Source: Anaerolineaceae bacterium (GTDB lineage Bacteria > Chloroflexota > Anaerolineae > Anaerolineales > UBA11657). From it: DNA of 33,028 nucleotides. Both the position numbers and the translations under genes were made by a program. The notes below the pieces were generated by a model. The model did no database searches, had not been told where the DNA came from, and saw only the letters and a program-made list of their open reading frames with translations. Location: contig BGOS01000004.1 of assembly GCA_003569365.1 (NCBI GenBank), positions 1-33,028 on the forward strand, given 5' to 3'. Of this stretch, positions 1,868 through 24,100 are shown piece after piece; the first letter of the stretch is position 1; each line of letters starts with the position of its first letter.

Positions 1868-1924
1868 TAAAACGGCACTGCACGCGAGCAGCGGTTCTAC
1901 AAAACCCCTTGGCGCGAAGGGCGT

Positions 1925-2060
1925 TTGCAAAAGAACGGGGTGGGCGACCTGGCTTGGGCAAGCGATTTTGCCCTTACAGTTGCGCGACAGCGCCGGACTT
2001 TCACCGGCTTCGCCACCAAGGTGTGCCAATCGTTGGAGATCAGCACTTCCGCTCTGTTGG
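1925..2060 (-). promoter_or_regulatory. Cobalamin (B12) riboswitch aptamer
   Basis: The minus strand carries the conserved cobalamin aptamer core. A GCCGGTGAAAGTCCGGC hairpin lies at 2008-1992. CTGTCGCGCAACTGTAAGGG follows at about 1990-1971. The B12 box, AAGCCAGGTCGCCCACC, lies at 1955-1939. The peripheral stem between the core and the B12 box is short (GGGCAAAATCGCTTGCCC), so this is a compact variant. It is followed by an intrinsic terminator and the btuF/btuC genes, so it should switch transport off when B12 is plentiful. The aptamer ends are approximate. Confidence 0.92.
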
Positions 2061-3197: not shown

Positions 3198-4138
<941 letters not shown>

Positions 4139-14594: not shown

Positions 14595-15077
14595 TCAGGG
14601 GGCGGTGAGTGCCGCGCGGAATTCCGCCGCGTTTGGTACGCCGTATTTTCGCCACTGTTCCTTTCCGGTGGCGTCAAAATATACAAACTGCGGTGTGCCG
14701 CGCAAGCCGTATTGTTGCGCTATGGCATAGCCGTCAGGCTCGATTACATTGACCGAGACGAATGTTACGCGGTCAAGCAAGGTTGTGCGCAGCCCGTCAA
14801 CGACAGGCTTGGCCATCAGGCACCCGAGTCAGAAGGGTGATTGGAACTCTACCAGCGTTGGCTTGCCGGAGCTAAGCGCGGCCTCCAGTGCGAGTGCGGG
14901 TGGAACTGCGCTTGGCGGCGGGCGCATGATCCACCAGCCGGCAACGAGCGTGCCGCCCAGCGCGGCGGTGGCGAGCCACTGTGCAGGAGCGATTGCTCTG
15001 AAGCCGCGTGAACCCAGCAGCACGAGCATTATCATCGCGCCGATCATGGGGTACGAATAGAAATTGATTGAGCTCAT
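14595..15077 (-). CDS. Membrane-anchored thioredoxin-like protein with in-frame TGA at the CxxC motif (candidate selenoprotein)
   Basis: Read through one TGA, this is a 160-residue thiol-disulfide oxidoreductase. Two hydrophobic N-terminal segments (about residues 9-25 and 31-52) should anchor it. The thioredoxin fold then starts at TLVEFQSPF. The next codon is TGA (14831-14829), followed by LGC, so the active site reads U-L-G-C instead of C-L-G-C. The frame continues in register with AKPVVDGL, VTFVSVNV, QQYGLRGTPQF including the cis-Pro, and YFDATGKEQW, up to a TGA at 14597-14595. No base needs adding or removing. The ATG at 15077 overlaps the upstream peptidase stop (ATGA). Selenocysteine is an inference. 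The alternatives are a TGC-to-TGA mutation, a base-call error, or two separate short ORFs. Confidence 0.8.
14791..14809 (-). promoter_or_regulatory. Candidate bacterial SECIS stem-loop
   Basis: On the minus strand AGCCTGTC pairs with GACGGGCT in eight consecutive pairs (one U-G) around a GTT loop. The stem begins 19 nt, and the loop 27 nt, after the in-frame TGA. Bacterial SECIS elements are short hairpins inside the coding region just downstream of UGA, with a G at the start of the apical loop, and this fits. The primary sequence need not be conserved, so the call is tentative. Confidence 0.45.
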
Positions 15078-16447
15078 TGGGCGGCATTGCTGAAGAAGTG
15101 CACAAACGTTTCGATGCCACGCCAGAATGTGGGAATATGCTGTTTTTCATTCGGGCCGTGAATGCCGTCATCGTGCAGCGCAAATCCCAGCATCACTGTA
15201 TCTATGTTTAAGTGGGTGCGCATCAAACCCACAATGGGCACGGATCCGCCTTCGCGCACCAAGACCGGCGCCTTGCCGAAGACGGTGTGCATTGCGCGGA
15301 CGGCAGCCTGCATGCCAGGCGAGTTGCGGTCGACCACGGCTGGATGCGCGCCGGACAGCAGGTTGAGTGTCCAGCGCACGGAGGGTGGCGCATGCTGCGC
15401 GAGGTATGCGCGCATCTGGGTTGCCACCTTGGCGGGATCCTGGTTGGGTACGAGGCGCGTGGAAATTTTGGCCATGCTTTTTGCCGGGAGTACAGTTTTG
15501 CTGCCTTCACCGGTGAAGCCGGAGAGCATGCCGTTCACATCGAGGGTTGGGCGCGCGCCAATTCGCTCTGCGCTGCTAAATCCGCGTTCGCCGTAAAGTT
15601 GCGGCGGGTTGGCGGCAGCTGCCAGCACGTCGGCATCCGTGTACGGGGTTGCGGCGAGCACCGCGCGCTCAGCCGGGTCCAGTGTCACCACGTCGTCATA
15701 AAAGCCGGGAAGTAAAATATGGCCATCGGAGTCGTGCATGCCGGCGATCAAGCGGGCAAGCACATTGGCGGGATTGTGCACTACGCCGCCAAACATGCCG
15801 GAATGCAAATCTGTTTGCGGGCCCTGAACCCATAGTTCAAAGTACGCGAGGCCGCGCAGGCCATAGACGATGGACGGAATATCGGGTTTGAGGATGCCGC
15901 TGTCTGCGCTGACCATATAGTCGCACTGCAGCCGGCTGGCGTGCGCGGGAATGAACTTGGACAGGCTGGGCGACCCGATTTCCTCTTCGCCCTCAATCAG
16001 GAACTTTACATTGACCGCAAGGCTGCCGGCTGCCAGGAGTGCGCCCACGGAGCGGATGAGCGTGAGAACCTGCGCTTTCATGTCGGATGCACCACGCGCA
16101 TAAAGGTTGTCCCCGCGCTGGGTGGGCGTGAAGGGATCCGTGTTCCACTCTGCCAGCGGGTCAGCCGGTTGCACGTCGTAGTGGCCGTAAAGCAAAATGG
16201 TTGGCTTGCCCGGGGCGTGCAGCCAGTCCGCATACACTACCGGATGGCGGTCGGTCTCGAAGAGCTGTGCGTGCTCCATGCCAATGCTGTTCAGTTTGGC
16301 GACGACCCATTGCGCAGCGCGCCGCGTATCCGGGTTGCGTTCGCTGAGCGTTGAGATACTGGGTATCGCGCTGAATTCGATCAGGTCCGCGAGGGCTGCG
16401 GATTGCTGGCTTGTGACAGATGCAAGGGCGGCGTCTAGGTGCTTCAT
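15074..16447 (-). CDS. M20-family metallo-dipeptidase
   Basis: A 457-residue cytoplasmic zinc peptidase of the M20 family, closest in layout to CNDP-type/PepV-like dipeptidases. Metal ligands and catalytic residues are visible in order: LLYGHYDVQPADP (His ligand plus catalytic Asp), ARGASDMKAQ (bridging Asp), IEGEEEIGSPS (catalytic Glu then ligand), VSADSG and HGPNEKQHI near the C-terminus. The dimerisation lid domain lies between about 210 and 350, with the conserved DLHSGMFGG. The start is the ATG at 16447. Its stop overlaps the thioredoxin start. The exact substrate cannot be told from sequence. Confidence 0.93.
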   Translation of the reverse strand: MKHLDAALASVTSQQSAALADLIEFSAIPSISTLSERNPDTRRAAQWVVAKLNSIGMEHAQLFETDRHPVVYADWLHAPGKPTILLYGHYDVQPADPLAEWNTDPFTPTQRGDNLYARGASDMKAQVLTLIRSVGALLAAGSLAVNVKFLIEGEEEIGSPSLSKFIPAHASRLQCDYMVSADSGILKPDIPSIVYGLRGLAYFELWVQGPQTDLHSGMFGGVVHNPANVLARLIAGMHDSDGHILLPGFYDDVVTLDPAERAVLAATPYTDADVLAAAANPPQLYGERGFSSAERIGARPTLDVNGMLSGFTGEGSKTVLPAKSMAKISTRLVPNQDPAKVATQMRAYLAQHAPPSVRWTLNLLSGAHPAVVDRNSPGMQAAVRAMHTVFGKAPVLVREGGSVPIVGLMRTHLNIDTVMLGFALHDDGIHGPNEKQHIPTFWRGIETFVHFFSNAAQ

Positions 16448-21466: not shown

Positions 21467-22270
21467 TCATGCATGGACCAAAGCGGTTCCGGTGGATCCT
21501 GTTCCAACCAGGTGCTCGTATACGCTGCCGGTTTCGGCACCGGAAAATATTTGGATGGCAAGCGTCGGCTGGATCTGGAGGAGTGAGAACATCTGCTGTA
21601 CTTTTGATGCCATTCCACCGGTTACGTCCGGGGCCTGCGATGCTTCGACTTGCGCCGCGCGGGATGCAAGCATTGAAGGCGTTAGGCGGGGTAGGACTGC
21701 GCCAGTTGGGAATGTATCCAATACGCCGGGATCTGAGCCGGCGAGCAGAATTTGCGCCGGATTCAGCTCGGCGGCGAGAAATACAAAAACGTCTTCGGTC
21801 GACACGATTGTTGCGCCGCGTTGCGTATCGATGGCTACGTCACCGCACACCAATGGCACGAGGCCATTGCGCAACGCAACAGTGATTGGTGCGAATGCTA
21901 GTGCGTGCAACGTCCCATCTGTGCACACTGCCGAAGCCGACGGTCTTAAATTTATGATCGGCACTCCCGCGGCGCGCAAGGCATCTTCTACCAGCCGGTT
22001 CAACTTTCCGGCTGCGATAGCCACCTCTGCGAACCCGCGCCATTGCGCAGGAGTGTGCGCGCCAGCGCGCGTGTTGTGGCGCAGGGCAGCGCTGTGGCCA
22101 AAGGAGCCGGACCCGTGGCCAATCAGGAGCTGTAATTGCGGCCGTGCTTTCAAGGCGCGCGCAATCTCGCCTGCCAACCGTGCGAGCACTTCGGGGCGCG
22201 GTGTGTCTGCCTGATGTTTTGCGGTGATTAGCGAGCCACCCAGCTTCAGGAAAACCAGTGGGTCGGTCAT
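21467..22270 (-). CDS. Isopentenyl phosphate kinase
   Basis: Member of the amino-acid-kinase fold, phosphorylating isopentenyl phosphate to isopentenyl diphosphate in the alternative mevalonate pathway. Motifs are FLKLGGSLIT at the N-terminus, the IGHGSGSFGHSAA loop with the IPK-specific catalytic His, VCTDGTLHA, LLAGSDPGVLDTFPTGAVLPRL, and DVTGGMASKVQQM, the family hallmark. The 267-residue length is typical. The start ATG at 22270 overlaps the mevalonate kinase stop (ATGA). Its partner, a phosphomevalonate decarboxylase, is not in the window. Fosfomycin-resistance-type and glutamate kinases share the fold but lack the GSGSFGH/TGGM combination. Confidence 0.92.
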   Translation of the reverse strand: MTDPLVFLKLGGSLITAKHQADTPRPEVLARLAGEIARALKARPQLQLLIGHGSGSFGHSAALRHNTRAGAHTPAQWRGFAEVAIAAGKLNRLVEDALRAAGVPIINLRPSASAVCTDGTLHALAFAPITVALRNGLVPLVCGDVAIDTQRGATIVSTEDVFVFLAAELNPAQILLAGSDPGVLDTFPTGAVLPRLTPSMLASRAAQVEASQAPDVTGGMASKVQQMFSLLQIQPTLAIQIFSGAETGSVYEHLVGTGSTGTALVHA

Positions 22271-23228
22271 CTTGTCGTGGACTCCAGTGTAGTGATTGAC
22301 GCTGATTTGGCGCCGGCTGCGAGCAGTGCTTTTTGCACTTTAGGTGCGCCTGATTTATCCACCAGTGCAATCATGCACCCCCCGGTGCCTGCGCCAGTGA
22401 GCTTGGCACCGTAAGCACCAGCTTGAATTGCTGCGGCGCACAGGGCGTCGAGCAACGCGGTTGAAACGCCGATAGCCTGCAGCAAGCTATGGTTTGCATT
22501 CATTAGCGCGCCGAGCATTTCATGCTTGCCGGCTTCAAGCGGTGCCCGTGCACTGAATGCTAGTGCTCCAATCTCCGCAAAGATACTTGAAAAGCGGTCG
22601 GGGCTATCACTGTGAAGTTTCCGCACTGCATTTACTGCTTCGCGCGTGGAGCCGGTTAATCCGGAGTCGGCAATCACGAGCTCCAGGCTCGAGTGGGGGT
22701 AAATGAATTCTGGATCCTTGTTTTTTGTGAAACAGATTGCCGCATGGTGGGCAATCACGGTCGGGTCAATTCCGGAGCTGTTCCGTGGTGAAGATGTTCA
22801 ACGGCTGAGGCAATCTGAGCCGCTGCGGTGGCGGGGAGTTCGGTGGCGAAGCACGCTGCCAGCGCGCGGGCTATGGCAATTGTGATGGCTGCGCTGGAGC
22901 CGAGGCCGGCAGCAACTGGCAGTGCGGAGTGTACGCGCAGCGTGCCGCCAGGTGCCTCAGAAATGTTCAGGGTGCGCATTGTTTCCAATATGGCAGCTGC
23001 CAGCGGATGGTCTTCAGCCAACTTATCGAAGCAGGTATGCATTGCAATGCCGGGGGCATCGACTACCAACTTTTCTAAAGAGTGTCCGGCTGCAGTGATA
23101 GTTGCAGTGGCGCGCAAATTATTTAGTGGAACTGCGATGGCAGGCTGTCCGTAAACGACTGCATGCTCGCCGAACAAAATTACTTTACCGGGAGCACTGC
23201 CGGTGGAGATTTGCGGCAGCGGCGTCAC
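22267..23228 (-). CDS. mvk: Mevalonate kinase, interrupted by a one-base frameshift near 22776
   Basis: GHMP-family kinase converting mevalonate to phosphomevalonate. The N-terminal frame shows GSAPGKVILFGEHAVVYG and the ATP loop LPVAAGLGSSAAIT. It then reads HLHHGTAPELTRP and stops. The other frame supplies GIDPTVIAHHAA, the GSTREAVNAVR segment and the C-terminal KLTGAGTGGCMIAL. Restoring one base in GCTCCGG (to GCTTCCGG on the coding strand) gives HHGTASGIDPTV, the exact family motif, in a protein of about 320 residues. The GTG at 23228 overlaps the ubiA stop (GTGA) and fits the family N-terminus. The break is probably a sequence error, since the downstream pathway enzyme is intact. Confidence 0.9.
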
Positions 23229-24100
23229 GCGAGATAAAGCACAAGCACAGCGGCGAGCGCCCAGACAAATACTGTGGCCAGCAGCGGGCGGTCCTCCAAG
23301 AGCAGGTCTTCCGGTGCGCCGCCTTTGCCGGCAACATGCAGCAGGTACAAGTAGCGCAGCGTGCCATACCAAACCGGTGCGATAGTAAGCATCATCAAGT
23401 GGTTTGCGGGCATATTGGGCGCGCTAAATGTGTACAGCGAATAAGCGATCAGGATGGCAGCGGCAGCCATGTTGATGGCCAGGTCCAGAAATGGCAGCGT
23501 GTATTCCTGCAGTACGCTGCGGTGGGTTGAAGCTTGCGCTTGCATAAGCGTCAGCTCATGGCGGCGTTTCCCAAACCCGACCAGGAGCGCACCGAGGCCA
23601 ACGCAGATAAACATCCACGGGGAGAAGCGTTCAACATTTACCAGCGTTACTCCGGCGCCCAGCCGCAGCAAAAATCCTGTGGCAACAACCATCACATCGA
23701 GGATGACGATGTTCTTAAGGCGGTACGAGTACAAGAGGTTTTGCACCCAATAGACTGCTGCCAGCAGGCCAAGTAATGGTTTTATTGCATAGGCAGCCGG
23801 AAGGGCGAGCAGGGGAAGCATCACCGCAGTTATGACTGCGCTGCGCGGTGTGATCAGCCCGGCCGCAATCGGGCGGTTCTTTTTTGTTGGGTGCAGGCGG
23901 TCGGCCTCGGCGTCGAAAAGATCATTGATGAGATACACGGAACTTGCGAGGGCGCAGAAAACTCCGAAGGCTAATAAGCTTGGTACCAGATACTGCATCT
24001 GGAGCAGTTTTACGTCGAACACCAAAGGAACGAGGATCACTAAGTTCTTGATCCATTGCCGCGGGCGCAGGGCTCGGATCAGCGCTGCAATATCTGTCAC
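23225..24100 (-). CDS. UbiA-family prenyltransferase, decaprenyl-phosphate phosphoribosyltransferase-like
   Basis: A polytopic membrane prenyltransferase of 291 residues. It begins LIRALRPRQWIKNLVILVPL and carries the Asp-rich substrate motif NDLFDAEADRLHPTKKNRPI near residues 59-78. This form is typical of decaprenyl-phosphate phosphoribosyl (DPPR) synthase relatives. A second, weaker Asp motif (NIVILDVM) and about eight hydrophobic helices follow. It would transfer a group to or from a polyprenyl phosphate. The polyprenyl substrate links it to the mvk and ipk genes that follow with 4-nt overlaps. The start is a GTG exactly six bases after a TATAAT box. Menaquinone-type acceptors are an alternative. 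Confidence 0.88.
   Translation of the reverse strand: MTDIAALIRALRPRQWIKNLVILVPLVFDVKLLQMQYLVPSLLAFGVFCALASSVYLINDLFDAEADRLHPTKKNRPIAAGLITPRSAVITAVMLPLLALPAAYAIKPLLGLLAAVYWVQNLLYSYRLKNIVILDVMVVATGFLLRLGAGVTLVNVERFSPWMFICVGLGALLVGFGKRRHELTLMQAQASTHRSVLQEYTLPFLDLAINMAAAAILIAYSLYTFSAPNMPANHLMMLTIAPVWYGTLRYLYLLHVAGKGGAPEDLLLEDRPLLATVFVWALAAVLVLYLA

Follow-up and report, generated by a model that had tools for sequence, protein, structure and literature searches.

A probable membrane-anchored selenocysteine thioredoxin with a conserved bacterial SECIS hairpin in Anaerolineales

Introduction

Selenocysteine (Sec) thioredoxin, which carries the PF00085 domain and a UxxC motif, is among the prokaryotic selenoprotein families listed as verified by experiment (PMC9312934, PMC13188914). 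For the bacterial SECIS hairpin (bSECIS), the published limits are a loop of 3–9 nt, a stem of 4–16 bp, a G in the first two loop positions, a spacing of 16–37 nt and an MFE no higher than −7.5 kcal/mol (PMC13188914). In selenophosphate synthetase, Sec is known to occupy a UxxK motif (reviewed in PMC9312934 and PMC13188914).

Here, we analysed a 33,028-nt stretch of Anaerolineaceae DNA (contig BGOS01000004.1, hereafter the window), which belongs to a 2.63 Mb genome in a 30-contig assembly (G000), and searched 101 genomes for homologues of one of its genes. A first-pass annotation had proposed that this gene encodes a membrane-anchored Sec thioredoxin. With a probability that we put at about 0.96, the gene encodes a selenoprotein, in which SECIS-directed Sec would be inserted at UGA 14831–14829 of a two-helix, probably extracytoplasmic U-L-G-C thioredoxin.

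Results

Direct reading of the minus strand, on which all features of the gene lie, reveals a frame that starts with ATG at 15077 and ends with TGA at 14597–14595 (161 codons). As the first-pass annotation had reported, this frame is halted by TGA 14831–14829 and continues beyond it without an indel, this triplet being the sole internal stop. When the TGA is read as U, the 160-residue product is MSSINFYSYPMIG...EFQSPF-U-LG-C-LMAKPVVDGL...GTPQFVYF..., with U-L-G-C at residues 83–86. The codon thus occupies the place of the nucleophilic Cys of CxxC, as had been claimed, and homologues have either Sec or Cys there. The read-through translation, the PF00085 match and an 80%-identical same-genus homologue with the same TGA delimit the putative selenothioredoxin gene at 14595–15077 (160 residues plus the final TGA stop, Sec at residue 83). 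Its in-frame TGA (14829–14831) would specify U83, while the resolving cysteine C86 (TGC, 14820–14822) falls in an invariant alignment column.

The product matches Thioredoxin PF00085 over residues 69–154 (window 14616–14873) with 36.3 bits against a cut-off of 23.5 (E = 6e-9), and also Thioredoxin_2 PF13098 with 34 bits against a cut-off of 27. Both U83xxC86 and P129 are conserved in the homologue alignment, P129 being the cis-Pro that had been noted in the C-terminal part. An AlphaFold model built on the 30-sequence alignment (mean pLDDT 82.9) contains a confident thioredoxin domain, which Foldseek matched to many thioredoxins with TM-scores up to 0.84 by target length. The same model has helices at residues 8–23 and 31–51, and these are predicted to be transmembrane segments (15009–15056, with additional support from hydropathy, and 14925–14987, respectively). 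The earlier description as a TlpA/thioredoxin-like protein stands for thioredoxin but, by sequence, does not extend to TlpA proper. The curated thioredoxin equivalog TIGR01068 gave 35.7 bits, below its cut-off of 96.8 bits, and therefore the product is not filed as a classical soluble thioredoxin; none of the NCBIfam models reaches its own cut-off for this protein.

The positive-inside rule relates positively charged loops to the cytoplasmic side of the membrane. Across the family, the loop between the two helices has a positive net charge (mean +1.7) and the flanks are near neutral. Because of this, the thioredoxin domain is probably extracytoplasmic.

Among the 30 best loci, this gene included, the first position of (U/C)xxC is encoded by TGA in 25 and by TGC in five, and never by a codon for another residue. 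TGA at exactly this codon is found in this gene, in its same-genus homologue and in 23 others across the order; the additional TAA reported for one of these loci (L028) is the terminal stop of that gene. The nearest public relative, with 79% identity, comes from an Anaerolineales bacterium (Chloroflexota).

Downstream of the TGA lies a candidate bacterial SECIS hairpin (14791–14809), in which 14809–14802 pairs with 14798–14791 around the loop GTT (14801–14799). This hairpin, AGCCTGTC-GTT-GACGGGCT, has 8 bp including one G·U and a predicted energy of −11.0 kcal/mol; its 5' arm follows a spacer of 19 nt, and the loop G is nucleotide 28 after the TGA, which corresponds to a spacing of 27 nt. The 8-bp stem with a G-first triloop described in the first-pass annotation is therefore real, and its loop, stem, spacing and energy all lie within the published bSECIS limits. 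Several relatives fall outside the energy limit when scored as a simple unbroken stem. It should be noted that an equally stable hairpin occurs in the same range behind 22 of the 811 TGA triplets of the window. Given that such structures are so common, the hairpin of this single sequence is weak evidence and was rejected as an argument of its own.

We then turn to the relatives. The best hairpin occupies the same place in each of the 25 TGA genes, with its loop 26–27 nt after the TGA and its pairing around CC(C/T)(G/A)TC-GTN-GA(C/T)(A/G)GG, across the codons for K-P-(V/I)-V-(D/N)-(G/R/E). Over 24 sequences aligned without gaps, 89.6% of the paired cells were complementary, compared with 46% or less when the partner was slid by 1–3 columns, and the covariation score was 0.322, higher than in any of 500 shuffles (mean 0.171). 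For example, in 24 of 25 genes the wobble base of the Asp/Asn codon tracks its pairing partner, the first position of the Val/Ile codon (Fisher p = 4.9e-6); the Pro codon likewise has a wobble base that tracks its partner (p = 2.2e-4), both p-values ignoring relatedness. Since these compensatory changes include synonymous positions, protein constraint alone cannot explain the pattern. The TGA genes keep 5–6 of the six core pairs, whereas only 1–3 are left in the degenerate counterparts of the five Cys genes on which the Sec/Cys comparison within the order rests. The conservation and covariation of the hairpin are well beyond chance.

The first-pass annotation had named the Sec machinery of the source genome as a check. 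Profile searches of G000 identified SelB (C23:79356–81248; 310.6 bits, cut-off 242) and SelD (364 bits, cut-off 125), as well as SelA, which exceeds its cut-off with 310 bits in one frame (model positions 2–253) and 192 bits in another (252–449). The selA gene is broken by one frameshift in G000 but lies unbroken in a single frame in nine relatives of the genus and family (G001–G009; the match in G001 is cut by the contig end). Because of these nine relatives, and in view of other split genes in the window, the frameshift is probably an assembly error. Moreover, selD (C23:196969–197907, L053) has a TGA of its own in the context CAG-U-ASK, at the classic site, followed by a hairpin of −10.4 kcal/mol whose loop lies 20 nt on; a second gene therefore points independently to Sec use in this genome.

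The split genes of the window are malate dehydrogenase (3198–3854, plus strand), where most of the C-terminal domain is missing in frame, and GHMP kinase (22267–23372, minus strand), whose N- and C-terminal halves are divided over two overlapping ORFs. Both breaks look like single-base assembly errors.

SelA, SelB and SelD are thus encoded; tRNA-Sec is not in the assembly, and its usual neighbour tRNAs are missing too. Neither Rfam nor a covariance model trained on 13 tRNA-Sec sequences from the order found it in G000, these searches returning only other tRNAs (e.g., Ser, Leu, Tyr, Gly and Met), and it was not seen around selA, selB or selD, nor in two other, incomplete genomes of the genus. 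In most of the order, tRNA-Sec scores over the cut-off. It has a UCA anticodon in three genomes of the same family, where it and a tRNA-Phe(GAA)-Gly(GCC)-Cys(GCA) cluster lie in head-to-head orientation, an arrangement also found in a genome of another family (G038). In G005, from another genus of the same family, tRNA-Sec is truncated at the contig start with its UCA anticodon loop intact. ARAGORN, applied to the tRNA-search loci of G000, recovered 36 tRNAs, among which tRNA-Phe, tRNA-Cys and tRNA-Gly(GCC) are all absent; four further matches outside this set are of the long kind (82–84 nt). tRNA-Cys and tRNA-Phe are indispensable. As they are missing along with tRNA-Sec, the cluster and selC most likely fall in an assembly gap.

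Directly upstream of the thioredoxin gene lies an M20 dipeptidase gene (15074–16447, minus strand; NF006053, 504 bits), and direct reading of the letters shows that its stop overlaps the thioredoxin start (ATGA). This overlap makes co-translation of the two genes probable. The nusA gene comes after the selenothioredoxin gene. The position behind the dipeptidase gene is that seen in the genus of the window, while in most other members of the order the gene lies beside divergent elongation factor G-like and methyltransferase genes; across the order, the methyltransferase gene beside the thioredoxin gene is paired with a metalloenzyme gene (L191–L210 for both). These neighbours, named from sequence alone, are presumably an elongation factor G-like protein, a methyltransferase, a metalloenzyme and an AMMECR1-like protein, and no functional partner was found among them. 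Elsewhere in the window, a Cobalamin riboswitch (RF01482, 52.5 bits; 1895–2030, minus strand) stands at the 5' end of a periplasmic binding protein ORF and is ordinary B12 uptake control.

In a maximum-likelihood tree, the Cys/Sec label requires at least four changes, three of which are forced by well-supported branches. In one family (f12), the Cys members branch from within the Sec members, which makes replacement of Sec by Cys likely in that family. With weak support, this gene and its genus partner group apart from the other members of their family, and the history of this gene may therefore include transfer or paralogy. TGA versions of the thioredoxin also occur in metagenome-assembled genomes recorded as Myxococcales (L140) and Actinomycetes (L144 and L148), as labelled in the records. 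A second TGA thioredoxin type exists in Chloroflexota (L181, L183, L185 and L189), with the motif EFFAFW-U-PTC and a downstream hairpin as well.

Discussion

The membrane-anchored Sec thioredoxin put forward in the first-pass annotation gains support, at the sequence level, from the frame, the position of the codon and its counterparts in homologues, the conserved and covarying SECIS hairpin, purifying selection and the presence of genes for SelA, SelB and SelD. Actual Sec insertion, the topology, a reductase role and the electron donor are inferences. In the mechanism that we propose, SelB carrying Sec-tRNA would bind the mRNA hairpin at 14809–14791, and owing to SelB at this site the ribosome would read UGA 14831–14829 as selenocysteine. 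The product would then consist of two N-terminal membrane helices and a U-L-G-C thioredoxin domain that most likely lies on the extracytoplasmic side; there, Sec83 would act as the nucleophile on disulfides or oxidised partners, with Cys86 as the resolving thiol. Electrons may come from a DsbD_TM/CcdA-type protein, of which the genome encodes a single one.

Since TGA normally acts as a stop and other genes of the assembly are broken, the gene could be a decaying or truncated thioredoxin, either a pseudogene or the source of an 82-residue product. We regard this as very improbable: such a product would be left without the second catalytic Cys and the cis-Pro, and many species share this TGA in a gene that has no further stop and whose C-terminal half is intact. 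For the pair of species from the genus, dN/dS was 0.181 upstream of the TGA (81 codons) and 0.201 downstream of it (77 codons). Purifying selection is the same on the two halves, which contradicts truncation or decay; the homologues, where the first-pass annotation advised looking for such decay, display none.

Two further explanations seem even more improbable. Indel faults elsewhere in the assembly (selA, malate dehydrogenase and GHMP kinase) could lend credit to the view that the TGA is a misread or misassembled TGC or TGT, yet the genome G001, assembled independently, has TGA at the same codon of its 80%-identical gene, as do many others, and TGA genes have the hairpin whereas Cys genes lack it. 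A genome-wide reassignment of UGA to Cys, Trp or Gly, or its read-through by a suppressor tRNA, would fit the failure to find tRNA-Sec in this assembly. Against it, the gene itself and the overlapping dipeptidase gene both end in TGA, the internal TGA is confined to the catalytic position and tracked by the hairpin, and SelA, SelB and SelD are encoded. The pseudogene, sequencing-error and recoding readings were thus rejected on account of the homologue TGA codons, dN/dS, the hairpin and the terminal TGAs, in favour of a selenoprotein.

Annotation under table 11 yields a fragment of 82 residues that lacks a working active site, and the same would happen in every TGA relative. Reading the codon as Sec would extend the selenoproteome of an uncultured group by a membrane-anchored selenothioredoxin and a SelD that itself uses Sec, and the natural Sec/Cys pairs allow a comparison of what selenium buys outside the cytoplasm. 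We lean slightly towards a broader picture, in which these genes form an uncatalogued, order-wide family of two-helix extracytoplasmic selenothioredoxins, where the SECIS partly dictates the KPVVDG motif behind the active site and Cys revertants lose the hairpin while the motif drifts.

UxxC Sec thioredoxins as such are already known; the novelty lies in the Anaerolineales subfamily, with its two helices and probable extracytoplasmic position. Our literature search found no paper on Anaerolineales members of the Sec thioredoxins, and since no NCBIfam model reaches its cut-off either, we consider the protein a new membrane-anchored member of a known selenoprotein type. It shares with the Sec thioredoxin of PF00085 the thioredoxin fold, Sec at the first position of UxxC and a bacterial SECIS directly downstream, but differs in its two N-terminal membrane helices, its probable location outside the cytoplasm, a conserved NxYS N-terminus, its order-wide occurrence in Anaerolineales and the lack of a curated NCBIfam match at cut-off. 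The thiol:disulfide interchange selenoprotein (PF13098, UxxC) resembles it in its redox UxxC and in a PF13098 score over the cut-off, although PF00085 scores slightly better here and the likeness is one of domain match. Finally, Cys-type thioredoxins of cyanobacteria, which we take to be HCF164/TxlA-like, are among the nearest by sequence and have a related thioredoxin domain (about 29–43% identity); unlike the protein described here, they carry WCxxC with Cys and occupy a separate, well-supported side of the tree.
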